From positions 62,001-126,000 of IMG/VR virus record IMGVR_UViG_3300042924_004713: 64,000 nt of DNA; one strand, given 5' to 3'. The notes below the pieces were generated by a model. That model worked only from the letters and a program-made list of their open reading frames with translations. It did not search any database and had not been told where the DNA came from. Positions 2,719-47,396 of the stretch are shown here, in pieces; position 1 is the first letter of the stretch; every line of letters begins with the position of its first letter. Both the position numbers and the translations under genes were made by a program. Source of the DNA: a virus.

Positions 2719-2794
2719 GGAGCTATAGTCAAACGGTTAAGACAGCGGACTTTTAATCCGTCAGGTCAGGGTTCGAATCCCTGTGGCTCCACCA
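2719..2794 (+). tRNA. tRNA-Lys(UUU)
   Basis: Complete cloverleaf with acceptor GGAGCTA pairing with TGGCTCC, anticodon loop CTTTTAA and canonical GTTCGAATCCC T arm. CCA is encoded, and those last three bases also form the 5' end of the hairpin at 2792-2875. Confidence 0.95.
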
Positions 2795-2875
2795 TATAAA
2801 AACACATTCGAACACATATAGGCGGCCGGCGCTAGGGAAATCTTTACGGAGTTCCTGGAATGTGTTTCTATATGG
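2792..2875 (+). ncRNA. Second 18-bp hairpin, overlapping the CCA end of tRNA-Lys
   Basis: The arms 2792-2809 and 2858-2875 pair at 17 of 18 positions around a 48-base loop. The 3' arm (core TGTGTTTC, then ATATGG) closely matches the 3' arm of the hairpin at 2446-2463, so the two are copies of one module. The 5' arm begins with the tRNA's own CCA, so tRNA maturation and hairpin formation would compete. The next base opens a TTGACC promoter. Confidence 0.5.
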
Positions 2876-2904
2876 TTGACCAATTAAATTCTTTTTGTTA
2901 TACT
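2876..2904 (+). promoter_or_regulatory. Sigma70-type promoter before the initiator-like tRNA
   Basis: TTGACC (2876-2881), 17-base spacer, TATACT (2899-2904), immediately downstream of the hairpin and 20 bases before the tRNA. Confidence 0.7.
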
Positions 2905-2923
2905 AGACAAAATACAATACAGC

Positions 2924-3000
2924 GGCGGAGGGGAGAAACGGTTTACTCGTTGGTCTCATAAGCCAAAGACATCAGGTTCGATTCCTGTTCTCCGCAACCA
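2924..3000 (+). tRNA. Initiator-like tRNA-fMet(CAU)
   Basis: Anticodon loop CTCATAA gives CAU. The 3' end CCGCAACCA is the same as in E. coli tRNA-fMet. With that register position 1 (G) faces A72, an unpaired 1-72 as in bacterial initiators, and pair 11-24 is A-U, another initiator hallmark. The anticodon stem has G-C, G-C then U-G where initiators have three G-C pairs, so initiator function is likely but not certain. The alternative is elongator Met with one extra 3' A. Confidence 0.8.
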
Positions 3001-3313
3001 GTTCCGGTTACTACTTTCCTGAAAGTAGGGGGCGCCACACCATAGTTAGGCCGGTTGGCTAGGCTACCGTTAGCGCAATGCAGAGCAGAGCACCTAGATA
3101 TGCGGACAAAACCGCTAGCACGAGACGCTGAAACAAATGTGGACAGGGTAACCACTCCAGGATAGGGGCGACTGTGGAAAAGCGTGGCCTAACCAAGATT
3201 TAAAATAAAACAGAAGTGAGCGATCTGTCTCTGAAAAGAGTTTAGCAAGGGTTGATGCGGTATCACAGCTTCGGCATCTGTAACAGCGATTCCTTGTTAG
3301 TTCTCGATTTTAT
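3001..3313 (+). ncRNA. Structured non-coding segment 3 of the island
   Basis: No gene is supported. Clear helices: CTACTTTC/GAAAGTAG (3011-3028); GTTAGGCC (3045-3052) with GGCCTAAC (3186-3193), enclosing about 130 bases; and TAGCAAGG (3243-3250) with CCTTGTTA (3292-3299), enclosing GATGC/GCATC. These long-range pairs argue for one or two folded RNAs. I did not find RNase P or group I intron core motifs. TCCTTGTTAGTT at 3291-3302 recurs at 22776. Confidence 0.5.
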
Positions 3314-3388
3314 GCACGGTTCGTCTATCGGTTAGGACACAGCCCTTTCAAGGCTGGAAGACGGGTTCGATTCCCGTACCGTGTACCA
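3314..3388 (+). tRNA. tRNA-Glu(UUC)
   Basis: Acceptor GCACGGT with ACCGTGT (first pair G-U), anticodon stem CAGCC/GGCTG, loop CTTTCAA, T arm GGGTTCGATTCCC, encoded CCA. Confidence 0.95.
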
Positions 3389-3755
3389 AACGTTCCAGCG
3401 TCACTGGATACTCTGGTCCCGGAGGATGAGAAGTGTGGTGACACACACGGGCGGTACACTTCTAGCCTAAAGTGCGCTGGCAATGCGAGAACGGTCCCGG
3501 TCGTGGAGCGGGTGGAGGCTGTGTGTGATGGTGCTAGGACTACTTGGTGCTTGATGCAGTATAATTACCGCCGCGGGACGCAGAGCATTTTTAGATTATA
3601 ACAGCAAGTGCTGATACAGGTAGCGTGACAGGACGCTGTCACTATGCGGGCTCTCCCGGCCGGGGACGGGTCCTGACATAACTGGCCTCGGCTTTGACCT
3701 TGTTAGCGCAAGACGTCTAAATTGGCATTATCTCAGCACTTGCTATTATGATCTT
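3389..3755 (+). ncRNA. Structured non-coding segment 4 of the island
   Basis: About 365 bases between tRNA-Glu and tRNA-Asp without a gene. Helices include CCAGCG (3395-3400)/CGCTGG (3475-3480), GAAGTGT (3430-3436)/ACACTTC (3456-3462), GTGACAG-GACG-CTGTCAC (3625-3642), and a perfect 12-bp helix AGCAAGTGCTGA (3603-3614)/TCAGCACTTGCT (3733-3744) closing a 118-base domain. A large ornate RNA beside phage tRNAs recalls the GOLLD class described from lake metagenomes and phages, but I cannot confirm that identity. Confidence 0.55.
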
Positions 3756-3830
3756 GGTCTCAAAGTGTTCATGGACGCACGTAGGCCTGTCACGCCTAAA
3801 GAAGGGGATCGTTACCCCTTGGGACCGCCA
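3756..3830 (+). tRNA. tRNA-Asp(GUC)
   Basis: Acceptor GGTCTCA with TGGGACC, D stem GTGT/GCAC, anticodon stem TAGGC/GCCTA with loop CTGTCAC, T stem AGGGG/CCCCT, discriminator G and CCA. The T loop is ATCGTTA, with A at 54 and U at 58, the reverse of the usual T54-A58. It occupies what could otherwise be read as the start of the next ORF and so fixes that gene's start at 3849. Confidence 0.85.
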
Positions 3831-3848
3831 AAAACAGTAAATACAGGC

Positions 3849-4094
3849 ATGAAAGAACTACTGAAAAATCTACCGCAGATTCTCAGTGCCCTGCCTGAAA
3901 TCGTAAAATATTTGAAATATCTGCCTGTGATTATGTTGCTGGCTGGTATTGGGTTTGGTGTTTACTATGCTGTGGAAAATAAAAAAGATCCATATGTGTG
4001 TGTAAACAACCATGTGTTTGAGCAACTGCGTGTGGACAGTGATGTCTATGTATTCAAAGGTGGCACCTGCGTGGATGCCAAAGATCTAAAATAA
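3849..4094 (+). CDS. Small single-pass membrane protein
   Basis: An 81-residue protein from ATG 3849; earlier in-frame starts lie inside tRNA-Asp. An amphipathic N-terminus (KELLKNLPQILSALP) is followed by one hydrophobic segment near residues 25-42 (LPVIMLLAGIGFGVYYAV), then a polar tail with two cysteines. The ribosome binding site is weak. No family recognised. The gene lies alone between tRNA-Asp and tRNA-Tyr. Confidence 0.6.
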   Translation: MKELLKNLPQILSALPEIVKYLKYLPVIMLLAGIGFGVYYAVENKKDPYVCVNNHVFEQLRVDSDVYVFKGGTCVDAKDLK

Positions 4095-4100
4095 ATTTCA

Positions 4101-4193
4101 GGGTGTCTTGTAGCTATGGCGTGTGCTACACCGGACTGTAAATCCGGTCCCTCGTGGTAAACATTCGCGGTTCGAATCCGTGGACACCCACCA
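4101..4193 (+). tRNA. tRNA-Tyr(GUA)
   Basis: Class II tRNA of 93 bases: acceptor GGGTGTC/GACACCC, anticodon stem CCGGA/TCCGG with loop CTGTAAA, long variable arm, canonical T arm, encoded CCA. Confidence 0.95.
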
Positions 4194-4200
4194 GTGTTAT

Positions 4201-4276
4201 TCCAGCGTAGCTCAGAGGTAGAAGCAGCGGACTGTTAATCCGTTTGTCGTTGGTTCGATCCCAACCGCTGGAGCCA
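4201..4276 (+). tRNA. tRNA-Asn(GUU)
   Basis: Acceptor TCCAGCG/CGCTGGA, anticodon loop CTGTTAA, T arm with GGTTCGATCCC, encoded GCCA. Confidence 0.95.
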
Positions 4277-4281
4277 ATCAA

Positions 4282-4356
4282 GGGCTGATAGTGATAGCGA
4301 GAGCACACTCGGTTTGCACCCGAGAGGTCGGGGTTTGACTCCCCGTCGGTCCACCA
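4282..4356 (+). tRNA. tRNA-Ala(UGC)
   Basis: Acceptor GGGCTGA with TCGGTCC (two G-U pairs), anticodon stem CTCGG/CCGAG, loop TTTGCAC, T arm GGGGTTTGACTCCCC, encoded ACCA. Confidence 0.92.
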
Positions 4357-4371
4357 AACAAGGAGAAAATA

Positions 4372-4626
4372 ATGTTGAGAGATTACACACCCAAGATAGC
4401 CAAGGCTGATCTTGAACATGGTGCATATTACACAGGTAGTTGCCGTAATGCCAGCGTAGCTCGTTGGGATAGTAATAAACAATGCTTTGTGCATTGGCGT
4501 TCGAAGTTTGGCGATAGGTTTCTTGAAGAAATACGTCATCCTGAAGATGACTCTGTGTTTGATGTTTTTGTAGTAGAAAGCAAGATTACTCATCCAGTGG
4601 AAGAAATACCACTAGATAGGATTTAA
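4372..4626 (+). CDS. Hypothetical phage protein
   Basis: An 84-residue protein with AAGGAG eight bases before the ATG, a good ribosome binding site. Mixed charge, soluble, aromatic-rich centre (CFVHWRSKFGDRF) and acidic second half; no membrane segment or known motif. It sits between tRNA-Ala and tRNA-His and is probably translated from the same long transcript before or during tRNA processing. Confidence 0.75.
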   Translation: MLRDYTPKIAKADLEHGAYYTGSCRNASVARWDSNKQCFVHWRSKFGDRFLEEIRHPEDDSVFDVFVVESKITHPVEEIPLDRI

Positions 4627-4627
4627 T

Positions 4628-4703
4628 GGTGTCCGTAGTGTAGTGGTCTGCACGGGTGTCTGTGGAACACTCAGCGTCGGTTCAATCCCGATCGGATACC
4701 CCA
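4628..4703 (+). tRNA. tRNA-His(GUG)
   Basis: Anticodon loop CTGTGGA. The extra 5' G (G-1) facing C73 is encoded, the identity element of tRNA-His; acceptor GTGTCCG pairs with CGGATAC. Encoded CCA. Confidence 0.93.
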
Positions 4704-4705
4704 AT

Positions 4706-4783
4706 GCATCGGTACCAGAGCGGCCTAATGGCGGAGTCTGCAAAACTCTCGATTCGCTGGTTCAAATCCAGCCCGATGCTCCA
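4706..4783 (+). tRNA. tRNA-Cys(GCA)
   Basis: Acceptor GCATCGG/CCGATGC, anticodon stem GGAGT/ACTCT, loop CTGCAAA, T arm CTGGTTCAAATCCAG, discriminator U as usual for Cys, encoded CCA. Confidence 0.94.
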
Positions 4784-4790
4784 AACATAT

Positions 4791-4868
4791 ACCGCTTTAG
4801 CTCAGTTGGATTAGAGCATTGGCCTACGAAGCCAAGGGTCGGGGGTTCGAGTCCCTCAGGCGGTACCA
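4791..4868 (+). tRNA. tRNA-Arg(ACG)
   Basis: Acceptor ACCGCTT/AGGCGGT, anticodon stem TTGGC/GCCAA with loop CTACGAA. The A at position 34 would need the host's TadA to make inosine for CGU/CGC/CGA decoding. Encoded CCA. Confidence 0.95.
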
Positions 4869-4877
4869 TAAAGTTAT

Positions 4878-4951
4878 TCCGGTGTGGTGTAATGGCAGCG
4901 CGGCGGTCTCCAAAACCGTTAGTGGGGGTTCGATTCCCTCCACCGGAGCCA
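4878..4951 (+). tRNA. tRNA-Trp(CCA)
   Basis: Acceptor TCCGGTG/CACCGGA, anticodon stem GCGGT/ACCGT, loop CTCCAAA, T arm GGGGTTCGATTCCCT, encoded GCCA. Confidence 0.94.
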
Positions 4952-4955
4952 AATT

Positions 4956-5029
4956 GGTCAGTTAGCTCAAAGGTAGAGCACACGGCTGATAACCGTGAGA
5001 CACTGGATCGTTACCAGTACTGACTACCA
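4956..5029 (+). tRNA. tRNA-Ile(GAU)
   Basis: Acceptor GGTCAGT/ACTGACT, anticodon stem CACGG/CCGTG, loop CTGATAA, T stem ACTGG/CCAGT, encoded CCA. The T loop is ATCGTTA, with the A54/U58 arrangement also seen in Asp, Gly(GCC) and Phe here. Confidence 0.92.
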
Positions 5030-5033
5030 TGAT

Positions 5034-5110
5034 GGCGATGTAGCATAGTTGGTCAATGCAGCCGCTTCATACGCGGAAGATCGGGGGCTCGAATCCCTCC
5101 ATCGCTACCA
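5034..5110 (+). tRNA. tRNA-Met(CAU), elongator-type
   Basis: Acceptor GGCGATG/CATCGCT fully paired (first pair G-U), anticodon loop TTCATAC, T arm GGGGGCTCGAATCCCT, encoded ACCA. The paired 1-72 separates it from the initiator-like tRNA at 2924. A lysidine-type Ile tRNA with CAU is possible but the body looks like elongator Met. Confidence 0.9.
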
Positions 5111-5187
5111 TGCTGATATAGCTCATTAGGTAGAGCACCGCCTTGGTAAGGCGGAGGTGACCAGTTCGATTCTGGTTATCAGCACCA
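5111..5187 (+). tRNA. tRNA-Thr(GGU)
   Basis: Begins directly at the CCA end of tRNA-Met with no spacer. Acceptor TGCTGAT/ATCAGCA, anticodon stem CCGCC/GGCGG, loop TTGGTAA, encoded CCA. Confidence 0.94.
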
Positions 5188-5191
5188 AAAA

Positions 5192-5279
5192 GGAAGTGTG
5201 CCAGAGAGGTCTATTGGAGCAGTCTTGAAAACTGTCGTATCGCAAGGTACCGTGAGTTCGAATCCCACCACTTCCGCCA
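5192..5279 (+). tRNA. tRNA-Ser(UGA)
   Basis: Class II, 88 bases: acceptor GGAAGTG/CACTTCC, anticodon stem GCAGT/ACTGT with loop CTTGAAA, long variable arm, T arm GTGAGTTCGAATCCCAC, discriminator G and CCA. Confidence 0.94.
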
Positions 5280-5316
5280 AATATTTTCTAAAAGCATAGT
5301 GCATACTAACTAAACA

Positions 5317-5433
5317 ATGCGCCCGCTTTTATTTTTTATCTGTTGTATTCCTTTGGTCTGGTACTGGATGTGGCTAGCTCGACGTGTGCCACCCATGCCA
5401 GATCAAGAAGAAGACGACAACCGGCCCCGTTAG
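5317..5433 (+). CDS. Possible 38-residue membrane peptide
   Basis: ATG 5317 to TAG 5433, running ten bases into tRNA-Thr(UGU). Residues 4-21 are very hydrophobic (LLFFICCIPLVWYWMWL), then a charged tail with an acidic cluster (QEEDD). There is no clear ribosome binding site, so this may be chance; the hydrophobic-then-charged pattern and exact fit between two tRNAs are the support. Confidence 0.35.
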   Translation: MRPLLFFICCIPLVWYWMWLARRVPPMPDQEEDDNRPR

Positions 5434-5497
5434 TTAAACGGTATAACACTTGATTTGTAATCATGGATCGGCAGTTCGATTCTGTCACGGGGCACCA
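5424..5497 (+). tRNA. tRNA-Thr(UGU)
   Basis: Acceptor GCCCCGT/ACGGGGC, anticodon loop TTTGTAA on a stem with one mismatch (CTTGA/TCATG), T arm GCAGTTCGATTCTGT, encoded ACCA. Confidence 0.88.
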
Positions 5498-5505
5498 GTT
5501 TTCAC

Positions 5506-5534
5506 TTGATCTAAAATACTATTTGCAGTATACT
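5506..5534 (+). promoter_or_regulatory. Sigma70-type promoter inside the tRNA island
   Basis: TTGATC (5506-5511), 17-base spacer, TATACT (5529-5534), nine bases before tRNA-Ser(GCU). Confidence 0.6.
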
Positions 5535-5542
5535 ACTAACAT

Positions 5543-5634
5543 GGAGCGTTGGCCGAGTGGTCGAAGGCAGCGGTTTGCTAAACCGTCGTATTGAGAAATC
5601 AGTACCATTAGTTCGAATCTAATACGCTCCGCCA
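5543..5634 (+). tRNA. tRNA-Ser(GCU)
   Basis: Class II, 92 bases: acceptor GGAGCGT/ACGCTCC, anticodon stem GCGGT/ACCGT, loop TTGCTAA, long variable arm, encoded GCCA, followed by a run of T. Confidence 0.94.
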
Positions 5635-5654
5635 TTTTTTTTTTGAGGTCTAAC

Positions 5655-5843
5655 ATGAAAACTTTGAATCTAGTTCTTCCACTGATCGTACTATTGTTTT
5701 GTGTGGCTGGTATGATTACCGGTTACGGTGCCAACAACATGGCAGCAGTGTATGCAAATGTCACTGCGATGTTTGGCTGGGGCATAGTGGCCATGGATGC
5801 ATGGCGTGAATACAAACAACGGGCTGACTCTGGCGACCTTTAA
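5655..5843 (+). CDS. Small two-helix membrane protein
   Basis: A 62-residue protein from ATG 5655 (GAGG eight bases upstream; a TTG start at 5643 is less likely). Hydrophobic segments at about residues 5-25 (LVLPLIVLLFCVAGMITG) and 31-49, then a charged C-terminus. No family recognised; the small size suggests an inner-membrane peptide. The stop runs into a tRNA-like remnant. Confidence 0.6.
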   Translation: MKTLNLVLPLIVLLFCVAGMITGYGANNMAAVYANVTAMFGWGIVAMDAWREYKQRADSGDL

Positions 5844-5892
5844 TCCTTCCAACGGATAGAGTAGCAGGTTCAATTCCTGTCAAGGCCCGCCA
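5835..5892 (+). pseudogene. 3' remnant of a tRNA gene
   Basis: An anticodon-like stem-loop ATCC-TTCCAAC-GGAT, a short variable region, a T arm GCAGG-TTCAATT-CCTGT and a GCCA end are present, but nothing upstream pairs with the acceptor strand AAGGCCC and there is no D arm. The 5' half appears to have been replaced by the end of the small membrane protein gene. Confidence 0.5.
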
Positions 5893-5898
5893 TATAAT

Positions 5899-5973
5899 CG
5901 GTCCGTAGCTCAGCGGAAGAGTTCTGGTCTTCGAAACCAGCTGTCGGGAGTTCGAATCTCTCCGGACCGGCCA
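5899..5973 (+). tRNA. tRNA-Arg(UCG)
   Basis: Acceptor CGGTCCG/CGGACCG, anticodon stem CTGGT/ACCAG, loop CTTCGAA, T arm GGGAGTTCGAATCTCT, discriminator G and CCA. Confidence 0.94.
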
Positions 5974-5990
5974 ACTTAAAAGGATTTATT

Positions 5991-6458
5991 GTGCCACGTA
6001 TCGACGTAGATGAAATAAAACAATTTGTAGACAACTGTGGCCCAGGTACTCGTGTATATCTCGGTGCTGATAGTATTAGATATAGAGAAAAAAACATATG
6101 GTACGCTGAATACACTGTTGCGGTTGTGATACACATCAATGGCAACAACGGTTGCAAGATCTTTGGCGAGATCACAAGAGAACGTGACTATGACCACAAG
6201 CTCAGCAAACCTGCCATGCGGTTAATGAATGAAGTATATCGTGTTAGTGAGATGTTTCAGAGGCTAGCACCAGTAATGGGTGACTTTCCAGTTGAAGTAC
6301 ATCTGGATATCAATCCCAATGAAGCACACGGTAGTAGTTGTGTAGTTGGTCAGGCCATTGGCTACATTCGCGGTACTTGTAATGTGATTCCTTTGGTAAA
6401 GCCAAAGGCATTTGCAGCAAGCTATGCAGCAGACAGAATTGCCAATGGAGCATTATAG
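5991..6458 (+). CDS. RNase H-like fold protein (YkuK/DUF458 type)
   Basis: A 155-residue protein with GTG start and AAGGA upstream. An early YLGADS motif (around residue 23), a central VHLDINP (around 103) and a C-terminal KPKAFAASYAAD match the conserved blocks I know from the YkuK/DUF458 family, an RNase H-like fold whose aspartates probably bind metal. The activity of that family is not settled. The gene lies between tRNA-Arg and tRNA-Gly, where a nuclease acting on RNA would make sense, but that is inference. Confidence 0.65.
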   Translation: MPRIDVDEIKQFVDNCGPGTRVYLGADSIRYREKNIWYAEYTVAVVIHINGNNGCKIFGEITRERDYDHKLSKPAMRLMNEVYRVSEMFQRLAPVMGDFPVEVHLDINPNEAHGSSCVVGQAIGYIRGTCNVIPLVKPKAFAASYAADRIANGAL

Positions 6459-6463
6459 ATCTA

Positions 6464-6539
6464 AGCGGCTATGGCGTAGTTGGTAACGCATGTGCTTGCC
6501 AAGCATAAGTCACCGGATCGTACCCGGTTAGCCGCTCCA
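6464..6539 (+). tRNA. tRNA-Gly(GCC)
   Basis: Acceptor AGCGGCT/AGCCGCT, anticodon stem TGTGC/GCATA, loop TTGCCAA, T stem ACCGG/CCGGT, encoded CCA. The T loop is ATCGTAC (A54/U58). Confidence 0.92.
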
Positions 6540-6545
6540 GTAGTT

Positions 6546-6621
6546 GCGGGCGTAGCTCAGTTGGTAGAGCATTTGCCTTCCAAGCAAAATGTCGAGAGTT
6601 CGAACCTCTTCGCCCGCTCCA
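6546..6621 (+). tRNA. tRNA-Gly(UCC)
   Basis: Acceptor GCGGGCG/CGCCCGC, anticodon stem TTTGC/GCAAA, loop CTTCCAA, canonical T loop, encoded CCA. Confidence 0.95.
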
Positions 6622-6627
6622 GTATTA

Positions 6628-6702
6628 CCGACCGTCGTTCAATGGATAGGACATGGAGCTTCTACCTCCAGAATGTGGGTTCGATTCCTGCCGGTCGGGC
6701 CA
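6628..6702 (+). tRNA. tRNA-Arg(UCU)
   Basis: Acceptor CCGACCG/CGGTCGG, anticodon stem TGGAG/CTCCA, loop CTTCTAC, T arm TGGGTTCGATTCCTG, discriminator G and CCA. Confidence 0.94.
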
Positions 6703-6718
6703 GTATAAAGGAAATATT

Positions 6719-6868
6719 ATGCCAATGTATGAAACCACTGTGAAGACTCCGCAGGGAGAAACCAAAGATCGTGTATGGGCAAAAGATTTACAAGAAGCAC
6801 GGCAACTGTTTGAACAGCGTCATGGTCCAAGGAATGTGCCTTATATTCCCAAGATCATACCAAGTTAG
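6719..6868 (+). CDS. Small hypothetical protein
   Basis: A 49-residue protein from ATG 6719 with AAAGGAA nine bases upstream; longer readings of this frame would run through tRNA-Arg(UCU). A short beta-like N-terminus (MYETTVKTPQG) and a basic helix (LQEARQLFEQRHG) resemble the many small adaptor-like phage proteins of unknown role. Confidence 0.65.
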   Translation: MPMYETTVKTPQGETKDRVWAKDLQEARQLFEQRHGPRNVPYIPKIIPS

Positions 6869-6874
6869 TACTAT

Positions 6875-6950
6875 TGGGGATTCGCCAAGTTGGTAAGGCA
6901 GCGGATTTTGATTCCGCCATGCGGGGGTTCGAGTCCCTCATCCCCTACCA
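6875..6950 (+). tRNA. tRNA-Gln(UUG)
   Basis: Anticodon stem GCGGA/TCCGC, loop TTTTGAT, T arm GGGGGTTCGAGTCCCT, encoded ACCA. Position 1 is U opposite U72; a weak 1-72 pair is normal for tRNA-Gln. Confidence 0.92.
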
Positions 6951-7032
6951 TATAACCAGGAGACCAATCATGGGGCAATCGTTGTGATAGTTATGATGGT
7001 AGCATTGATTTATGTAATAGACCGGCAGTAAC

Positions 7033-7110
7033 CTCGGTGTAGCGCAGTCTGGGTAGCGCATCTGCTTTGGGAGCAGAGGGTCGGGAGTTCGAATCTCTCC
7101 ACCGAGACCA
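7033..7110 (+). tRNA. tRNA-Pro(UGG)
   Basis: Acceptor CTCGGTG/CACCGAG, anticodon stem TCTGC/GCAGA, loop TTTGGGA, encoded ACCA. The 82 bases before it hold no convincing gene. Confidence 0.95.
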
Positions 7111-7123
7111 ATTAAATACAAGC

Positions 7124-7360
7124 ATGTTGGTTGATCGTCATGCTTTTGTGTACACGGCCACTGTGCCGTGGCCCGCTGGAATCGTACCACAGCTGGACTG
7201 GATTCAAGGCGTTGAACTTGTGGAGTCCTGGCTGCAGACTCATGTTGGCAAACACTATGTGACCTGGGCCTGGAATGACAGTAAATCCTCATATCAACTA
7301 GGTGTGGCATTCAAGTGGGATCAAGATAGATCAATTTTTGTATTAACCTGGGCCCGTTAG
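7124..7360 (+). CDS. Hypothetical phage protein
   Basis: A 78-residue protein from ATG 7124, the first start after tRNA-Pro. Rich in Trp and Tyr with beta-like alternation; no signal peptide or metal motif. The ribosome binding site is poor. Its TAG stop lies inside the acceptor of tRNA-Val, so gene and tRNA share about ten bases. Confidence 0.6.
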   Translation: MLVDRHAFVYTATVPWPAGIVPQLDWIQGVELVESWLQTHVGKHYVTWAWNDSKSSYQLGVAFKWDQDRSIFVLTWAR

Positions 7361-7424
7361 TTTAATGGTAGAACTCCGTCTTTACACGGCGGTTACGGCA
7401 GTTCGATTCTGTCACGGGCTACCA
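7351..7424 (+). tRNA. tRNA-Val(UAC)
   Basis: Acceptor GGCCCGT/ACGGGCT (first pair G-U), anticodon stem CCGTC/GGCGG, loop TTTACAC, T arm GCAGTTCGATTCTGT, encoded CCA. Confidence 0.92.
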
Positions 7425-7426
7425 AG

Positions 7427-7502
7427 GCCGACTAAGCTAATCTAGTGAAAGCATGTGTCTGAAGAACACGAGAGCCTGGAGCGTAACCAGGAGTCGGCAC
7501 CA
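7427..7502 (+). tRNA. tRNA-Phe(GAA)
   Basis: Acceptor GCCGACT/AGTCGGC, anticodon stem TGTGT/ACACG, loop CTGAAGA, T stem CCTGG/CCAGG, encoded CCA. The T loop AGCGTAA is the most deviant in the island: A54, G55 and U58. Confidence 0.9.
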
Positions 7503-7571
7503 TTTCCTTGGCAAAATATAGAATAAATGTTGCAGTGCAATAAATATCCTATATACAAAAAGGAAATGACC

Positions 7572-7739
7572 ATGTCGCAGCTTATAACACATATATTAGA
7601 ACGTTTGAGTGAAATGTTTCCCGAAGAAAGCTATCAGAGTCGTCTGGAAAACTACATCATCAGTAGAGATCCAAAGACTGCTTCGGACATTGAAAAGTTT
7701 GAAAGAGAATTCACCTACGGTTCTAATAGGACTCTTTGA
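7572..7739 (+). CDS. Small conserved phage protein
   Basis: A 55-residue acidic protein from ATG 7572, chosen because AAGGAAA is well spaced before it (ATG 7566 and 7527 are alternatives). Helical, with a central YIISRDPKTASDIEKFEREF that resembles short proteins of marine T4-like phages. The following gene starts two bases after its stop. Confidence 0.6.
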   Translation: MSQLITHILERLSEMFPEESYQSRLENYIISRDPKTASDIEKFEREFTYGSNRTL

Positions 7740-7740
7740 T

Positions 7741-7827
7741 ATGTGGCATCGTATCATAAGCGCAGTTATTGATTATCGTCAACGCCAGGCAGATCTATAT
7801 CTGCGCTGCTTAATTTCAACAATTTAA
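7741..7827 (+). CDS. 28-residue phage peptide
   Basis: ATG 7741 starts two bases after the previous stop. One amphipathic helix (IISAVIDYRQRQADLYLRC). A very short Arg/Tyr-rich peptide after an acidic one is an arrangement I recall in cyanophage-type genomes. Function unknown; support is position and composition. Confidence 0.4.
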   Translation: MWHRIISAVIDYRQRQADLYLRCLISTI

Positions 7828-7834
7828 AAACAAA

Positions 7835-7914
7835 GCCCCGGTGGTGGAATGGTAGACACGCTAGTCTTAGGAACTAGTCTTCGGGTGCGAGTTCGAGTCT
7901 CGCCTGGGGCACCA
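7835..7914 (+). tRNA. tRNA-Leu(UAG)
   Basis: Acceptor GCCCCGG/CTGGGGC, anticodon loop CTTAGGA on a GCTAGT/ACTAGT-type stem, reduced variable arm (80 bases in total), canonical T arm, encoded ACCA. Confidence 0.93.
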
Positions 7915-7921
7915 TAATTCT

Positions 7922-7998
7922 GCGGATGTGACGGAACAGGTATACGTATCGGACTTAAAATCCGAGTTTTGAGGGTTCGAGTCCCTCCATCCGTACCA
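7922..7998 (+). tRNA. tRNA-Leu(UAA)
   Basis: Acceptor GCGGATG/CATCCGT, anticodon stem TCGGA/TCCGA, loop CTTAAAA. At 77 bases the variable arm is much shorter than in host-type tRNA-Leu. Encoded CCA. Confidence 0.92.
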
Positions 7999-8008
7999 AG
8001 GAGTCAAC

Positions 8009-8383
8009 ATGAAAATTCTAGATCAAGATTTTAGATTTGAATGGTTTAGTTCCACTGGTGGCGGTGGACAACATCGCAACAAACATCAGAACTGTTGTCG
8101 TTGTATCCATGTGCCCACTGGCATACAGGCCAATGGCACTTCAAGTCGCAGCAGAGAAGACAATCGCAAGAATGCTCTAGCAGTGTGTCGTGCTAGAGTA
8201 CAACGACATTTTCACAAGGATACCGAACGTTATCGTGCTTCCAATGAACGTGTACGCACATATCATGAAGTAGACAATCGAGTGTATGATCATGCTTCGG
8301 GCTTGACTGACACCTATCAAAATGTCATTGTCAAGGGCAATGTTGACAAACTGATTCAAGCCCGAGCACAAGCTGTAAAATAA
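8009..8383 (+). CDS. GGQ-domain release-factor-like protein (ArfB/RF family)
   Basis: A 124-residue protein with AAGGAG before the ATG. Residues 15-21 read STGGGGQ followed by HRNKH, the catalytic GGQ loop of class I peptide release factors, whose glutamine helps hydrolyse peptidyl-tRNA in the ribosome. The later block TYHEVDNRVYDH and a C-terminal KLIQARAQ correspond to the end of the RF1/RF2 catalytic domain. Domains that read the stop codon are absent, so it resembles stand-alone rescue hydrolases more than RF1/RF2. The basic ArfB-type tail is short. It sits at the end of the tRNA island, 6 kb from a tmRNA, which fits ribosome rescue late in infection. Confidence 0.8.
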   Translation: MKILDQDFRFEWFSSTGGGGQHRNKHQNCCRCIHVPTGIQANGTSSRSREDNRKNALAVCRARVQRHFHKDTERYRASNERVRTYHEVDNRVYDHASGLTDTYQNVIVKGNVDKLIQARAQAVK

Positions 8384-8384
8384 A

Positions 8385-8463
8385 CTCCCTGTGGCTCAGT
8401 CTGGTCTAGAGTGCTGGTCTGGGGGACCAGAGATCGCTGGTTCGAATCCAGCCAGGGAGACCA
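8385..8463 (+). tRNA. tRNA-Pro(GGG)
   Basis: Acceptor CTCCCTG/CAGGGAG, anticodon stem CTGGT/ACCAG, loop CTGGGGG, T arm CTGGTTCGAATCCAG, encoded ACCA. It starts two bases after the release-factor-like gene. Confidence 0.93.
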
Positions 8464-8466
8464 AAT

Positions 8467-8545
8467 GCCCCCATGGACAAATTGGCAAAGTCGGCTCTCT
8501 CAAAAGGAGCAGTTGTTCTCCGTTCGAATCGGAGTGGGGGTACCA
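8467..8545 (+). tRNA. tRNA-Leu(CAA)
   Basis: Acceptor GCCCCCA/TGGGGGT, anticodon stem GCTCT/GGAGC (one G-U), loop CTCAAAA, T arm CTCCGTTCGAATCGGAG, encoded ACCA. The D arm is less regular than in the others, so slightly lower confidence. Confidence 0.85.
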
Positions 8546-10321: not shown

Positions 10322-11323
10322 ATGCATAACCAAGATCTGCTAACTTCCTATGGCATAAACCAATCTATGTATCAACAGGTACTAGATCATATGTTCCCAC
10401 TTGACATCTATGAGTACGCAAGTAGAAAAGCCTATCTAGCAGAACGAACCAATCCCAATCGTGATCCAGGCTACGATATTCGCAATCAACAAGCATGGCA
10501 ACGTAGCTATGAAAACATCAAAGATCCCAGCTGGCCTGACTGCGCGACCCCAGATCACTTTGCAAACCTTCCACTACACATTCAACAGGAATGTATCACC
10601 CAACACGGCTTCAGCGCCGACATCTGGTTAGATCCCAATATACCTTTTGAAAAATTCCAAAGAGACCCAACCTGGCAACTTGATGCATTTGATATAGTGA
10701 GACTCAAGCTCGCATTGGTGGATAACCTTGACTCAATCAAACACAGAAAAATCATAGACTTTGGCACACATATTGGCTTGCTAGGCACTGTGTGTTTGCA
10801 CAATGATGCCGAGCACGTGATAGTCACCAACATCAAAAGTGATTGTCTAAGCATCGCTGATGAAATGCTGGCACTGAACAATCCACTGCGCCATCGTTTT
10901 CGTGCAGTGCTGAGTAACATAAACGATCTAGGAGAAACCGAAGCCTTGTGTTATGATCGCGACACAGTGATATTAGCAGCGATCATGAACATTGTTACTG
11001 ATCACTTTGGTATCATGCGTGCTATCACTCGGTCTAGACCCAAAACAATTATCATACAAAACTGGAATCCTCCTGTGATTGCCGCCCATCCAGTGCCACT
11101 GGTTTATTGGTGGTTGGAAGATGCCACTGTGGCCTGGAAAGGCTTTCATCCCACTGACATGGAAACTCGAGTGGGATGCCCAAACAAAGCTTGGTTTGAT
11201 ACCATACTGGGTGATTTTGGTTATCAGTTAAGCAAGTACACCCTGACCGACATCTCCAGTCCTTTTGCTGCGCTGTCACAGCATCAATTTGAATTCATGA
11301 CCTTGGTGTATGAGCTCAAATAA
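10322..11323 (+). CDS. SAM-dependent methyltransferase-like protein
   Basis: A 333-residue protein. The start is ATG 10322 because the next upstream ATG (10307) lies inside the promoter; translation would then be leaderless. Around residues 148-165, IIDFGTHIGLLGTVCLHN and the following VIVTNIKSD resemble the glycine-rich SAM-binding motif I and acidic motif II of class I methyltransferases. The long N-terminal part (Trp/Pro/Asp-rich) is probably substrate recognition. It overlaps the following B12-radical-SAM gene by 14 bases, so the two probably work on one pathway. Substrate unknown. Confidence 0.6.
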   Translation: MHNQDLLTSYGINQSMYQQVLDHMFPLDIYEYASRKAYLAERTNPNRDPGYDIRNQQAWQRSYENIKDPSWPDCATPDHFANLPLHIQQECITQHGFSADIWLDPNIPFEKFQRDPTWQLDAFDIVRLKLALVDNLDSIKHRKIIDFGTHIGLLGTVCLHNDAEHVIVTNIKSDCLSIADEMLALNNPLRHRFRAVLSNINDLGETEALCYDRDTVILAAIMNIVTDHFGIMRAITRSRPKTIIIQNWNPPVIAAHPVPLVYWWLEDATVAWKGFHPTDMETRVGCPNKAWFDTILGDFGYQLSKYTLTDISSPFAALSQHQFEFMTLVYELK

Positions 11324-12857
11324 ACGAACCATTGTGATAGCCAGCTTGCCCTATCAAACTCCGGGATGGCCTGCCACGGCTCCTGCGTTGCTCAGTGCCT
11401 GTCTCAACAAAGCAGGAATCAGTGCAGTGCCAGTGGACCTGGCAGCTGAATTTGTGGCTGACTTTGTGGACAAATGCTACTGGCCAGAACTACTGTTCTA
11501 TATTAGTCAGGGTCCTAATCCAGATCGCAAACTGCCAAGACGTGTGTTTATTGATATACTAAAATGGAATAGACGCAAACTCTTGCAGATCAAACGCGAC
11601 TATGATCCAGACATCATGGGTTTGAGTGTGTTCAGTGTGATGAGTGAAACCTATCTTACCTTGATGTGCTACAGTATTAGAAGGTGGTTGCCGGGCGTAA
11701 AAATACTAGCAGGTGGTCGAGGTCTAGAAATTCTCACACAGGGAGAATACACCGGTGATACACATGCCACTGGCAGCAGAGCACGTTGGCTTGTTGAACA
11801 AGGCATGATTGACTGTGCTGTTACTGGAGATGCAGAAAGCTTTATAATCGACGTAATCAAACAAGACTTATATGGAGTTGTAGATTCACCGCCGCAGACA
11901 TCTGCTGATTTAAATCAGGTTCCTATACCAGACTGGGACAATTATGATTTTGATCTATATCAAAGATTTAATCCATCAGATCGTTATCTACTGATCACAG
12001 ACAGCAAAGGTTGTGTGCGTCGATGCACATTCTGTGATGTTGAGCATCTATGGCCCCGGTATATTTTTAAAGATGGCGAGCTCTTGGCAAAAGAAATGAT
12101 TGAAAGTTATCATCGCACTGGTATTGACTTTTTTAGATTCAGTGGTAACTTGATAAACGGTAGTATACCAAACTATCGCAAAATGAATCAGTATCTAGCT
12201 GATCACTTGCCTCGTACTCTACGCTACAGTGGTTACGCTATATTTCGTGGCAGAGAAAATCAGCCACCTAAAGATTTTGAACTAGCAGGACGTGCAGGTT
12301 GCCTTGAATGGATCATTGGTGTTGAAAGTGGCAGTGAACGCATACGATATGACATGCGCAAGAAGTTCAGTAACGCAGACATAGACTACACTGCCAATCA
12401 ACTACACGACAATGGTATCAACCAGGTATGGTTATTCATGGCTGGCTACCCCATGGAAACCGAAGAAGACTTTGAACAAACGCTTAACCTACTGCGCAAA
12501 TATCGCCATTGGGCCCGAGATGGTAGTTTGCGTGTGGCAATTTCATCGCCATTTACGCTGGGTGATCAAGTGCCATTGACCAATGATGACCGACTACGCA
12601 ACTACTATCACTTTGAACGTGAGCAAGTGGTCAAAGGTTGGAGTCATATTTTTTGGCACACACCAACCAATCCAGACAACACATATGAAACACGTTTTCA
12701 CCGTTATAGAAGATTTCTAGAACTGCAACAGGAACTGGGTTTTGGAGACCGTGACGGGCAAGAAGCAGATCGTATGTTAAGAGAACAGCAGGAAGTATAT
12801 GAACAATATCTTGAAGCCAAAAAATCTAAAAAAACTTTCGCTATACGCAAGATCTAA
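11310..12857 (+). CDS. Radical SAM protein with cobalamin-binding-like N-terminal domain
   Basis: A 515-residue protein. Residues 6-190 have the Rossmann-like layout of B12-binding domains (VIASLPYQTPGW; DIMGLSVFSVMSETY; VKILAGGRGLE), without an obvious DxHxxG base-off motif. The cluster motif CVRRCTFC (C235, C239, C242) binds the [4Fe-4S] cluster that cleaves SAM, and WIIGVESGSERIR later matches the SAM-binding region of class B radical SAM methylases and BchE-like enzymes. Such enzymes methylate or rearrange unactivated carbons. The overlap with the upstream methyltransferase suggests one pathway. Product unknown. Confidence 0.82.
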   Translation: MSSNKRTIVIASLPYQTPGWPATAPALLSACLNKAGISAVPVDLAAEFVADFVDKCYWPELLFYISQGPNPDRKLPRRVFIDILKWNRRKLLQIKRDYDPDIMGLSVFSVMSETYLTLMCYSIRRWLPGVKILAGGRGLEILTQGEYTGDTHATGSRARWLVEQGMIDCAVTGDAESFIIDVIKQDLYGVVDSPPQTSADLNQVPIPDWDNYDFDLYQRFNPSDRYLLITDSKGCVRRCTFCDVEHLWPRYIFKDGELLAKEMIESYHRTGIDFFRFSGNLINGSIPNYRKMNQYLADHLPRTLRYSGYAIFRGRENQPPKDFELAGRAGCLEWIIGVESGSERIRYDMRKKFSNADIDYTANQLHDNGINQVWLFMAGYPMETEEDFEQTLNLLRKYRHWARDGSLRVAISSPFTLGDQVPLTNDDRLRNYYHFEREQVVKGWSHIFWHTPTNPDNTYETRFHRYRRFLELQQELGFGDRDGQEADRMLREQQEVYEQYLEAKKSKKTFAIRKI

Positions 12858-14084: not shown

Positions 14085-14234
14085 ATGATAGTCTGTGTAT
14101 GTAGAAATATCCGTGAATCAGATTTTCAAACCAAAGAAGAATTGGTTAAACGCATCATGGAATTGGATCACAACTGTGGACAGTGTCAGCAATACTGCGA
14201 ACAGCTAAAAGAATTGTTGTATGAAGCAAACTGA
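14085..14234 (+). CDS. Bfd-like [2Fe-2S] ferredoxin
   Basis: A 49-residue protein, MIVCVCRNI... then NCGQCQQYC. The CxC near the N-terminus (C4, C6) and the C31-x2-C34 pair match the four cysteine ligands of bacterioferritin-associated ferredoxin (Bfd) and related [2Fe-2S] domains; length and helical content also fit. Bfd reduces bacterioferritin to release stored iron, so a phage copy could free iron or donate electrons, for instance to iron-sulfur enzymes; that link is inference. Its stop lies at the 5' edge of the tmRNA acceptor piece. Confidence 0.72.
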   Translation: MIVCVCRNIRESDFQTKEELVKRIMELDHNCGQCQQYCEQLKELLYEAN

Positions 14235-14276
14235 AAAGGGTTCTGGACGCGGGTTCGACTCCCGCCTGGTCCACCA
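14235..14276 (+). ncRNA. ssrA: Permuted tmRNA, acceptor piece (3' part of the molecule, encoded first)
   Basis: GGACGCGGGTTCGACTCCCG followed by CCTGGTCCACCA is nearly the same as the 3' end of E. coli tmRNA: a T arm GCGGG-TTCGACT-CCCGC, acceptor strand CTGGTCC and encoded CCA. The matching 5' strand GGGCCAG is 118 bases downstream at 14394-14400 (seven pairs, one G-U). Upstream GGTTCTG (14239-14245) pairs with CAGGGTC (14413-14419) to make helix P2. Order acceptor piece, spacer, coding piece is that of circularly permuted two-piece tmRNA. Confidence 0.88.
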
Positions 14277-14288
14277 TAAGGAGATTGT

Positions 14289-14474
14289 ATGCCAGTAGAC
14301 ATGTACTACTATACCGAAAGCGAATGGAACAGATTGGGCTGCGGCCCACTGCCTCCAGAACGCAACATACTTAATCGTCAGTCTCTTTATGATGGGCCAG
14401 ACATGGTTTCGACAGGGTCAAGAGTAGGCAAGCAGACAACACGAGAGTCGACTGACGTAATCAGCGAAACATAG
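14289..14474 (+). CDS. Small ORF overlapping the tmRNA intervening segment
   Basis: A 61-codon ORF from ATG 14289, with AAGGAG directly after the acceptor-piece CCA. Codons 1-35 lie in the 117-base segment that permuted tmRNAs normally discard (MPVDMYYYTESEWNRLG then CGPLPPERN); the rest runs into the tmRNA coding piece and is probably meaningless as protein. Either a real gene hitchhikes in the spacer or the ribosome binding site is a coincidence. Confidence 0.35.
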   Translation: MPVDMYYYTESEWNRLGCGPLPPERNILNRQSLYDGPDMVSTGSRVGKQTTRESTDVISET

Positions 14475-14557
14475 TAACTGCAAACGCAGCTAACGACGAG
14501 GTATTCGCTCTCGCAGCGTAACCTCCGGGGCAGTTATGCCTTGTAACCCAAAATAGC
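14394..14557 (+). ncRNA. ssrA: Permuted tmRNA, coding piece with tag reading frame
   Basis: It starts GGGCCAG-ACATGGTTTCGACAGGG, like the tRNA-like 5' end of tmRNA. After ATAGTAACT the resume codon GCA (14480) opens the tag frame ANAANDEVFALAA, stopping at TAA (14519-14521). The tag ends ALAA, the signal recognised by ClpXP-type proteases, and ANDE matches the E. coli tag. Together with SmpB, tmRNA frees stalled ribosomes and marks the unfinished protein. A hairpin terminator follows. Confidence 0.9.
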
Positions 14558-14558
14558 A

Positions 14559-14580
14559 AGCCCGCTTCGGCGGGCTTTTT
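14559..14580 (+). terminator. Terminator after the tmRNA
   Basis: AGCCCGC-TTCG-GCGGGCT (14559-14576; loop 14566-14569) followed by T residues, the same hairpin as behind pqqA. Confidence 0.88.
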
Positions 14581-14597
14581 CATGAATAAATATCAGT

Positions 14598-14798
14598 ATG
14601 TGGATATTGATCATCAGCATGTATTTGGCACAACCTTTGGGACAGACCCAAAGCAAAGGCATTATTCAAGCACCACAACCTGACTATGAAAGCTGTATAC
14701 GTGAACGTGACCGTATAAGAGCCACTTGGTATACAGAGGGATACAAGGTTAGCCCTCGCTGCGTCTACGTCAAACACTATAACTCCCGCGGCATGTAA
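14598..14798 (+). CDS. Small exported protein
   Basis: A 66-residue protein from ATG 14598. The N-terminus WILIISMYLAQPLG is hydrophobic and may be a signal or anchor. The rest is polar with two cysteines (YESC, PRC). Upstream GAATAAATA resembles the late promoter box; no good ribosome binding site. No family recognised. Confidence 0.5.
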   Translation: MWILIISMYLAQPLGQTQSKGIIQAPQPDYESCIRERDRIRATWYTEGYKVSPRCVYVKHYNSRGM

Positions 14799-14821
14799 TT
14801 TAATTTCTCCAAACTGCCATT

Positions 14822-14850
14822 TTGTAACACAGTTGTAATACCATTGTGTT
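14822..14850 (+). promoter_or_regulatory. Pho-box-like triple repeat upstream of pstS
   Basis: TTGTAAC-acag-TTGTAAT-acca-TTGTGTT: three 7-base direct repeats with 4-base spacers, so an 11-base period, as in PhoB boxes (consensus CTGTCAT). A -10-like TATTCT follows at 14855-14860, 32 bases before ATG 14892. This arrangement would let host PhoB turn on the two phosphate genes during starvation. Confidence 0.6.
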
Positions 14851-14891
14851 TAAATATTCTTTGTGCATTGCACACAAAATGGAGATTACAC

Positions 14892-15917
14892 ATGAAAAAA
14901 CTTTTGTACGCGGCATTGACGGTGCTGTCATTTAATGCCTGGTCTGCTGATCTAACAGGCGCAGGTGCTACTTTTCCTTATCCTATCTATGCCAAATGGG
15001 CTGAAGCATATAAAGCAGCCACAGGTATTGGTCTAAATTATCAATCAATTGGTTCTGGTGGTGGAATTCGTCAAATCAAAGCCAAGACAGTTGACTTTGG
15101 TGCTAGTGACATGCCACTAAAGCCTGAAGAATTAGACAAAGAAGGTCTAATGCAGTTTCCTGCTATAATTGGCGGAGTTGTGCCTGTTGTTAATCTAGAT
15201 GGTATCGCAGCTGGACAGTTAAAACTAACTAGTGATGTAGTAGCTAACATTCACCTAGGCAAAATTACCAAGTGGAACGACAAAGCAATCACTGATTTGA
15301 ATCCCGGTGTAAATCTACCTGCCATTAATATCACTGTAATTCATCGTGCAGATGGCTCTGGTACAACATTCGTGTGGACCAACTACCTTGGCAAGGCCAA
15401 TGCTGACTTCCAAAAGACAGTGGGCGAAGGCACAGCAGTTAAATGGCCAGTTGGTATAGGCGGCAAAGGCAACGAAGGTGTAGCAGCACAAGTACAACGT
15501 ATCAAAGGTGCCTTTGGTTATGTAGAATATGCTTATGCAAAGAAAAACAAAATTGCTCACGCACAATTGAAAAATCGCGATGGTAACTTTGTTCAACCAA
15601 GCGACGACACATTCAAAGCAGCAGCAGCCAATGCAGATTGGGCTAATGCACCAGGAATGTATCTGTTGTTGACATGGCAAACTGGTAAAGAGGCTTGGCC
15701 TGCAACAGGTGCAAGTTTTATTCTAATGCACAAGCAACAAGCTGATCCGCTTACCGGACGTGCTATTCTTAAATTCTTTGACTGGAGCTACAAGAACGGT
15801 GCAAAAATGAGCGAAGAACTAGAATATGTACACATGCCTCAATCAGTTATTAAACTGATTCAAGATAACTGGCGTAAGGATCTCAAAGGTCCTGATGGTA
15901 ACACAATCTGGAAATAA
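14892..15917 (+). CDS. pstS: Phosphate-binding protein PstS
   Basis: A 341-residue protein from ATG 14892 (GGAGATTACAC upstream). Signal peptide residues 1-18 ending FNAWSA. The mature start GAGATFPYPIYAKW, the GSGGGIRQI and DFGASDMP blocks and HRADGSGTTF are the conserved phosphate-binding segments of PstS. It captures phosphate in the periplasm for the host PstCAB transporter. A porin gene follows after nine bases and a Pho-like repeat precedes it, so it is likely induced by phosphate limitation. Phage pstS is known in cyanophages. Confidence 0.95.
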   Translation: MKKLLYAALTVLSFNAWSADLTGAGATFPYPIYAKWAEAYKAATGIGLNYQSIGSGGGIRQIKAKTVDFGASDMPLKPEELDKEGLMQFPAIIGGVVPVVNLDGIAAGQLKLTSDVVANIHLGKITKWNDKAITDLNPGVNLPAINITVIHRADGSGTTFVWTNYLGKANADFQKTVGEGTAVKWPVGIGGKGNEGVAAQVQRIKGAFGYVEYAYAKKNKIAHAQLKNRDGNFVQPSDDTFKAAAANADWANAPGMYLLLTWQTGKEAWPATGASFILMHKQQADPLTGRAILKFFDWSYKNGAKMSEELEYVHMPQSVIKLIQDNWRKDLKGPDGNTIWK

Positions 15918-15926
15918 GGATCTATT

Positions 15927-17333
15927 ATGAAGACATTTACAAAACTAGCCTTGTCAATAAGTTTGATATTCAGTGTGCCTGCATACGCAGATGAATATTT
16001 GGATACTCTAAATATTCTACGAGACAAAGGCATATTGACACAAAAGGAATATGATGCCAAGGTCAAAGCCTACGAAGACAAAGCGGAAAACAAAAAGTTT
16101 GCAGAACAGCGAATTGACAAAGATGTTAGTGACTCAGTCAAATACAGACAAGCCAGAGCCAACGACGGATCAGTCACAGAAAATGGAATCGGACTCAAAA
16201 GCAAAGATGGAAACAATACCATCCAACTTACAGGTCGATTACACATGGACTATAGACAATACTCACCAGATTACGGTGCAGGTCAAACCACGGATTCGTA
16301 TCAGGACCTAGCTGAAGTTCGTCGTGCTCGATTTGGTGTGCGTGGCCAATTCCAGAAGGATTTCAAATATGAGATCGTGGGGAATCTAGGCAATGACATA
16401 GGTGCAGCAAGTTCCAGTACCACTATGGATGTAGCCTGGGTCAACTACGCTGCTAATCCAGAGGCTCAGTTTCAATTTGGTTTATTCAAGATGCCTTTCA
16501 GCTTAGAGCAACTTACCAGCTCCAACAACATTGATATGATGGAGCGTAGTTTGATTGGTCAAACCGAAGGCGAATTCATTCCTGCCAAAGAAACAGGATT
16601 TATGTTGCATGGTGTGCCAAAGACTGGTCTTACCTATGCTGTGGCAGTAAGTCGTGGCCGTGCCAACAAAGATGCAGTGAATGACGGACTTGATTATATT
16701 GGTCGAGTGACTACTAACATTGCAGACCTGCAAGGCAGCAAGGCCTATGTAGCACACCTAGGCGCGGCATATAGCACAGGTGAGATCAAAGGTGGTGTCG
16801 CACCTGCCAGTGGTCGTACCGAAGCACGCAGTGCAAATGCCTGGTTCACTGGCCCAGCATTAGGAGGTATAACTTCAAGAACACGTCAAGGACTTGAAGC
16901 AGCGTTTGCCTATAATGCCTTGAAAGTACAAGCGGAGCAATTTAACTTCAAGTATGATCCTACCACTGGTAATGATCAAGACATTCGGGGTTATTATGTG
17001 TTGGCAGTGTATAATCTTACCGGTGAAAGCTATAACTACCGTGACGGTGTCTTTGGTTCAATCAAACCAAACAATCCAGTAGACAAAGGTGGCCGTGGTG
17101 CTTGGCAAGTGGGCGTGCGTTTAAGCGAGTTTGATGCCAGTGATATCGCTGTGGCCACAGGTAAATCAAATCGTGCAACAGCCATGACCTATGGTCTAAC
17201 CTGGTTTACCACCGAAAACCTACGCTTTATGATAAACTACGTAGACACTAAGTTTGACAGTCTAGTTGGCAGCTCAGGAAGTCGTGTAAATGGCGATCGT
17301 GCTTTGATGTTTAGAAGTCAATTCAACTTTTAA
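15927..17333 (+). CDS. Phosphate-selective porin (OprP/OprO type)
   Basis: A 468-residue protein with AAGGATC before ATG. Signal peptide residues 1-21 (ending PAYA), then a short coiled segment (DEYLDTLNILRDKGILTQKEYD) typical of OprO/P porins, then a beta-barrel beginning GRLHMDYRQY and ending in the terminal phenylalanine (MFRSQFNF), the outer-membrane assembly signal. It would form an outer-membrane channel favouring phosphate, feeding PstS. Same operon as pstS. A phage carrying the outer-membrane step together with the binding protein is noteworthy. Confidence 0.88.
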   Translation: MKTFTKLALSISLIFSVPAYADEYLDTLNILRDKGILTQKEYDAKVKAYEDKAENKKFAEQRIDKDVSDSVKYRQARANDGSVTENGIGLKSKDGNNTIQLTGRLHMDYRQYSPDYGAGQTTDSYQDLAEVRRARFGVRGQFQKDFKYEIVGNLGNDIGAASSSTTMDVAWVNYAANPEAQFQFGLFKMPFSLEQLTSSNNIDMMERSLIGQTEGEFIPAKETGFMLHGVPKTGLTYAVAVSRGRANKDAVNDGLDYIGRVTTNIADLQGSKAYVAHLGAAYSTGEIKGGVAPASGRTEARSANAWFTGPALGGITSRTRQGLEAAFAYNALKVQAEQFNFKYDPTTGNDQDIRGYYVLAVYNLTGESYNYRDGVFGSIKPNNPVDKGGRGAWQVGVRLSEFDASDIAVATGKSNRATAMTYGLTWFTTENLRFMINYVDTKFDSLVGSSGSRVNGDRALMFRSQFNF

Positions 17334-17483: not shown

Positions 17484-17768
17484 ATGAAATTGAAACCTCT
17501 ACATGATCGCGTGATAGTAAGAGTGCAAGACTCCGAAACACGCACCCAAAGTGGCATTGTTATTCCCGACAACGCTAAAGAAAAACCAACCACAGGCGAA
17601 GTTCTTGCTGTTGGCCCTGGTCGCTATGACAACGGTGCTTTTGTTGCTACCACAGTAACCGAAGGTGCACGTATTTTGTTTGGTCAGTTCGCTGGACAAA
17701 AAGTCAAAGTGGAGAACGAGGAATACACTATTCTTCGTGAAGAAGACATTCTTGCAATCTTAGCTTAA
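17484..17768 (+). CDS. groES: Co-chaperonin GroES
   Basis: A 94-residue protein with AAAGGAGAAGG before the [14 protein letters not shown] at the N-terminus, the mobile loop around [13 protein letters not shown] and the closing EDILAIL are typical GroES features, and the length is normal. It caps the GroEL ring. Unlike T4 gp31, which is very divergent, this is a standard bacterial-type GroES. groEL follows after 12 bases. Confidence 0.97.
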
Positions 17769-19403
<1,635 letters not shown>

Positions 19404-47333: not shown

Positions 47334-47396
47334 TTGGTGTGCCTTTTGTATTCCTGCCAGAACATCATCTCTGGATTCGTATTCACGGTTTGAATT

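Follow-up and report, generated by a model that had tools for sequence, protein, structure and literature searches.

A permuted, two-piece tmRNA gene with a conserved tag in a large tailed phage

Described two-piece tmRNAs and the anatomy of the phage gene

Circularly permuted genes for two-piece transfer-messenger RNA (tmRNA) have been reported from phages. The isolated Methylophilales phage Melnitz has one, and two-piece structures account for 53 of 133 unique phage tmRNA structures (PMC9004378, 2022); since it has been published, the phage two-piece tmRNA is a known kind. A tmRNA database paper from 2025 lists 79 unique bacteriophage sequences and considers tags that are very short or absent (PMC11915505). 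The present analysis concerns a permuted tmRNA gene in a window of 64,000 bases, comprising bases 62001-126000 of the 166,408-base virus record IMGVR_UViG_3300042924_004713. Unless a record is named, positions are those of the window and features lie on its + strand. The gene occupies 14214-14577 according to Rfam and ARAGORN. From sequence comparison, we consider it likely to be a phage-borne ssrA gene that is functional and of the permuted beta type, and that would serve ribosome rescue with host SmpB, and tagging, during infection. An initial annotation of the locus had implied that permuted tmRNAs are rare in phages. This is at odds with the published work, with their presence in isolated phages, and with the at least 101 distinct permuted tmRNAs recovered from IMG/VR by two pattern scans.

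The gene resembles that of Melnitz, a T4-like myophage of aquatic origin, in being permuted and two-piece. However, the Melnitz ssrA was assigned to the alphaproteobacterial type, whereas the beta model is the best here, and a glutamine riboswitch is described there (PMC9004378), whereas Rfam found no riboswitch in this window. With betaproteobacterial tmRNA (RF01850), the gene shares an acceptor half encoded first, helix P2, a tag, a 3´ element and a terminator-like hairpin, but it is phage-borne and has a 117-nt intervening sequence. ARAGORN also calls permuted tmRNAs in isolated Stenotrophomonas phages (Menderavirus, e.g., Bhz51) and Xanthomonas phage X1, with approximately 80-83% identity to the first piece of the present gene. 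Their tags, in contrast, are called VAANDDSYTVRIAA and VAANDADYSVARYA, and no DNA similarity extends beyond that piece at the search threshold. Mycobacterium phage DS6A likewise encodes a tmRNA-related RNA, which has no tag, whereas the tag of the present gene is conserved.

Two permuted models of Rfam match above their gathering cutoffs: RF01850 (beta_tmRNA) over its full length with 128.3 bits (gathering 84, E 9.6e-39) and RF04321 (tmRNA_permuted) with 126.9 bits (gathering 47, E 1.9e-24). Because the Rfam output gives only the top model per clan, beta_tmRNA outscored the rest of its clan. ARAGORN also calls a permuted tmRNA and reads the tag as ANAANDEVFALAA. RF04321 has a single match in the whole record, and ARAGORN found no second tmRNA in the window or the rest of the record, the last 408 bases excepted. 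The initial annotation had proposed a permuted two-piece tmRNA, named the Rfam permuted models as the check and, as contrary evidence, an unpermuted tmRNA elsewhere in the same genome with this locus not transcribed; its proposal is borne out by both models and ARAGORN, and no such second gene was found.

Piece 1, the acceptor half (14214-14276), is delimited by sequence, ARAGORN, Rfam and inter-piece covariation. It includes TTGTTGT (14214-14220), the partner of ACAAC in piece 2 (14436-14440), followed by the 5´ half of P2, GGTTCTG (14239-14245), the T arm GCGGG/TTCGACT/CCCGC (14249-14265), the 3´ half of the acceptor stem, CTGGTCC (14266-14272), and directly 3´ of this an encoded ACCA (14273-14276, with CCA at 14274-14276). 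The intervening sequence (14277-14393) is placed by its position between the acceptor halves. Piece 2, the coding half (14394-14557; sequence, Rfam and covariation), begins with the 5´ half of the acceptor stem, GGGCCAG (14394-14400), which pairs at seven of seven positions with CTGGTCC, and contains the 3´ half of P2, CAGGGTC (14413-14419), which also pairs at seven of seven positions with G-U counted. The acceptor pair G14396 with T14270 corresponds to G3-U70, the alanine identity pair. The order of the halves, the two stems and the tag frame had thus been correctly annotated; the extent given, 14235-14580, does hold the elements named, but the 5´ piece reaches slightly further, to at least 14214, and the match to the Rfam beta model begins at 14163.

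The tag frame (14480-14518, with TAA at 14519-14521; ARAGORN and codon-position test) has a hydrophobic, degron-like C-terminus followed by the stop. Downstream lie a 3´ pseudoknot-like element of piece 2 (14529-14557) and, still within the beta_tmRNA match, a terminator-like hairpin (AAGCCCGC-TTCG-GCGGGCTT and then T's; 14558-14582), which is not among the terminators listed by a scan of the + strand. A promoter scan gave two promoters against 1.8 expected. Fold prediction for the single strand with pseudoknots disallowed missed the known tmRNA fold, and we draw no support from it.

Covariation between the pieces and constraint on the tag

The helices that join the two pieces covary among viral relatives. 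The two scans of IMG/VR viral contigs took as their pattern only the T arm/CCA plus a GG.TTCGA box further downstream; helices and tag were not used. The acceptor stem pairs at all seven positions at the fixed offset in 92 of the 226 distinct scan matches listed, compared with 4.9% with shuffled partners; many of the others probably match by chance or are genes with other spacing. Pair 3 is G-U in all 92 fully paired genes, and pairs 4-6 swap standard pairs. P2 was tested separately in 120 genes called by ARAGORN, whose acceptor stems are thus program-selected. It has a mean of 6.73 of 7 pairs, compared with 5.17 in shuffles (highest 5.4; 0 of 1000 reach 6.73) that, as in all these covariation tests, take no account of kinship. 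Slid controls gave at most 3.54 pairs, and each pair position shows more than one type of standard pair. The TTG[C/T]TGT/ACA[G/A]C helix covaries in 41 of 41 genes that have both motifs (TTGCTGT-ACAGC in 25, TTGTTGT-ACAAC in 16). In the 3´ pseudoknot (GGCA/TGCC, loop GTTA with TAGC), compensatory changes are seen by eye, with variants ACTA/TAGT (L005), GACA/TGTC (L125) and GACT/AGTC (L128).

The tag is constrained as a peptide. In relatives sampled without regard to the tag, it has six distinct versions, whose pairwise differences fall 21/9/71 on codon positions 1/2/3 and are thus mostly at third positions, as expected if the peptide is kept. The first three codons of the tag (GCA AAC GCA) are near-invariant at the nucleotide level too, a hint that the RNA itself is constrained at the resume codon. 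Because the inter-piece helices covary and the tag changes mostly at third positions, the gene is under selection both as an RNA and as a reading frame.

Compared with betaproteobacterial RF01850, the phage tag has three extra residues (ANA + ANDEVFALAA). A degenerate pattern for ANAANDE-x-FALA matched 33 viral stretches, and ANA[AS]NDEVYALAA variants are also present in viral contigs. ANAANDExFALA was found in 0 of 84,980 bacterial and archaeal species genomes, for this spelling only and in a scan without a positive control. Support for the suggestion that the tag betrays the donor lineage is therefore weak: within its clan, beta_tmRNA fits best, yet with the tag in no species genome scanned no donor can be named, and identification of a donor by tag was dropped. 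The tag may also, as first suggested, redirect ribosome rescue during infection.

Genome context, mobility and the intervening sequence

The gene is carried by a large tailed phage, in agreement with the phage location first assigned: the record encodes a portal protein (phrog_213), a virion structural protein (phrog_12050), a baseplate hub (phrog_13211) and an SbcC/gp46-like nuclease (phrog_77). The tmRNA gene lies upstream of genes for a PstS-like protein, a phosphate-selective porin, GroES (17484-17768) and GroEL (17781-19403). It is found at the matching site in five contigs from other samples, L002-L006, of which L002-L004 are identical while L005 and L006 have diverged and likewise carry the tmRNA upstream of GroES/GroEL. 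The record is a metagenome assembly, and the locus could in principle be an assembly artefact or bacterial contamination of the viral bin. This is contradicted by the other assemblies, by the phage structural and gp46-like genes on the same record and by a tag pattern that matches viral contigs only, and we regard it as scarcely credible. When GroEL was used to sample related phages, 19 of the 28 records had a permuted tmRNA.

In a further record, nearly the same tmRNA (L144:2690-3220) has a tail/fibre-like gene on one side and unrelated genes on the other, and its 117-nt intervening sequence is identical to that of the window. This different gene context indicates that the tmRNA has moved between phages, as a cassette. 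The ssrA gene is a common integration site. A host copy gained by recombination and functionless for the phage would fit such mobility, but is hard to reconcile with the compensated pairing of several inter-piece helices and the codon-position bias, both seen across many viral genes, with a tag absent from species genomes, and with the frequency of the gene in the GroEL sample. A passive hitchhiker of this kind is largely contradicted, and we consider it very unlikely.

Other features of the phage were recorded alongside. An array of 28 tRNA genes spans 2719-8545. ARAGORN reports tRNAs with a CTA anticodon in this phage (L087:19075-19148, - strand) and in a relative (L006:13168-13243), which are possible amber suppressors. 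The genes for the PstS-like phosphate-binding protein and the phosphate-selective porin (Porin_O_P), at 14844-17333, adjoin GroES/GroEL. Several radical SAM proteins (11310-12857 and 41055-49890), a DegT aminotransferase (31429-32472) and a carbamoyltransferase (38297-39805) perhaps form a surface-sugar or natural-product pathway.

The ends of the intervening sequence can pair in the predicted fold and would extend the acceptor helix. The sequence is not conserved in L005/L006. It contains the start of a 61-codon candidate open reading frame (ORF; 14289-14474) with a Shine-Dalgarno (SD)-like AAGGAG, which runs into piece 2. This ORF has no Pfam match, is identical in L144 and absent in L005/L006, and its only phage match is weak (E 0.2), mostly within the part overlapping piece 2. 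Its SD-like motif also pairs with the opposite end of the intervening sequence in the predicted fold; as the ends can pair, the motif may be structural instead. Of the distinct intervening sequences, 65 are 75 nt or longer; eight of these (three of them from close relatives) combine an SD-like motif and an ATG with an ORF of 25 or more codons, compared with 2.0 expected and at most six in 200 shuffles. Nested small ORFs with SD-like motifs were observed in L290 (4329-4469 region), L462, L061, L295, L296 and L300; examples are MFENWHWVYIWGIIVFVNYMFWIIKSLFD, which varies mainly at third codon positions, and a CPSC...HKC peptide. For one nested ORF, L290 and L462 differ 2/0/8 at codon positions 1/2/3, and it is for this reason probably translated.

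Proposed ribosome rescue, degradation partners and long tags

If the gene is functional, a single precursor would be transcribed and host tRNA-processing enzymes would cut out the intervening sequence at both ends, leaving two pieces held together by the acceptor stem, P2 and the further helix. Host alanyl-tRNA synthetase would charge the tmRNA via G3-U70. With host SmpB and EF-Tu, the tmRNA would then act during infection, rescuing ribosomes that stall on broken mRNAs and appending Ala + ANAANDEVFALAA to the stalled product, the ALAA end of which would direct it to Clp proteolysis by host ClpXP/ClpAP. Alternatively, a phage ClpA-like unfoldase docked on host ClpP could possibly degrade the tagged product.

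SmpB was not found in this record or in 16 related records, and neither ClpP nor SspB was found in this record; the phage should therefore depend on host SmpB for rescue and on host ClpP for degradation. The same absence of SmpB would suit a decoy, in which the phage tmRNA mainly occupies host SmpB, displaces the host tmRNA and weakens quality control, with the tag of minor importance. A precedent is the tag-less tmRNA-like RNA of phage DS6A, which is reported to inhibit endogenous tmRNA in E. coli (PMC11915505, PMC4131195). A decoy would not need a tag, however, and here the tag frame is kept as a peptide with mainly third-position changes, which makes the decoy unlikely.

We therefore retain rescue and tagging with host SmpB as the probable function, with several points to be set against it. 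Expression, processing, charging, tagging and use of the phage ClpA-like protein are all predicted from sequence. Compatibility with the SmpB and proteases of the host is assumed. The record may be incomplete, which weakens the absence of SmpB, ClpP and SspB, and the intervening sequence differs wholly between close relatives.

The record encodes a 753-aa ClpA-like unfoldase (record positions 14124-16385; L082:14124-16385), adjoined by a DnaJ gene (L082:13269-14048). The protein is similar to ClpA (TIGR02639) over its full length, with Clp_N, two AAA modules and a D2-small domain, and its IGF aligns with the ClpP-docking IGL of E. coli ClpA. Unlike ClpA proper, it scores 794 bits, under the equivalog cutoff of 993.15, so that it is called ClpA-like only, and no phage ClpP was found. 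ClpA-type unfoldases recognise ssrA-type tags, and a route from phage tag through phage unfoldase to host peptidase is for this reason plausible. In a near-identical sister record (G001), the tmRNA is present and ClpA was not detected; the pairing is thus not obligatory, or that record is incomplete.

Related phages have tags of 23-32 residues, with conserved cores (VKVSMGRGFRFG or FDFxAxSFTGNTV) followed by a variable degron-like end. These core-bearing tags and the phage-only ANAANDExFALA tag are new here; in the portion of PMC11915505 considered, the text, its tables aside, holds nothing on long conserved phage tags. Among 18 distinct GroEL-sampled genes, 12 have tags of 28-30 residues, all with a core like KVSMGRGFRFG. 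Cores like VKVSMGRGFRFG occur in the 28-30-residue tags of the permuted tmRNAs of L022, L033, L035, L050, L055, L061, L062, L065, L070, L075 and L111. A degenerate DNA pattern for KVSMGRGFRFG-like cores matched 25 viral stretches, 20 with an ARAGORN tmRNA and the other five permuted by eye; it had no match in the 84,980 species genomes or among isolated phages, and a protein source of the core was looked for and none found. The second family, FDFxA[ML]SFTGNTV, comprises 85 viral stretches (including L158, L178, L192, L300, L321 and L382-L459) with tag ends such as RGAANESRFALAA, SGKSKVALAA, ANDSKFALAA and GGRVALAA. Differences in long tags are mostly at third positions, as are 94 of 122 among members of the FDF family not chosen by tag. 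A full-length ClpA-like protein is encoded in 13 of 13 long-tag and 9 of 20 short-tag records of at least 110 kb (Fisher p 0.0016, kinship ignored; the records were hand-chosen and are possibly fragments, with sizes alike between the sets).

One tentative extension, which we hold to be possible but doubtful, is that in large phages two-piece tmRNAs have diversified to carry tags specific to phages, either ANA-extended or bipartite with 23-32 residues and one of the two cores. Co-adapted with the phage ClpA-like unfoldase, these tags would give the phages a tag-and-degrade or tag-and-deliver route of their own, built on host SmpB and ClpP.

In conclusion, the few phage two-piece tmRNAs described so far are joined by a well-supported further example, and such genes are common in uncultured large phages. 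If phage tags and the ClpA-like unfoldase do cooperate, these phages would not just supplement translation but reprogram bacterial protein quality control, and rescued proteins would receive, in the long conserved tags, a peptide signal of a new kind.
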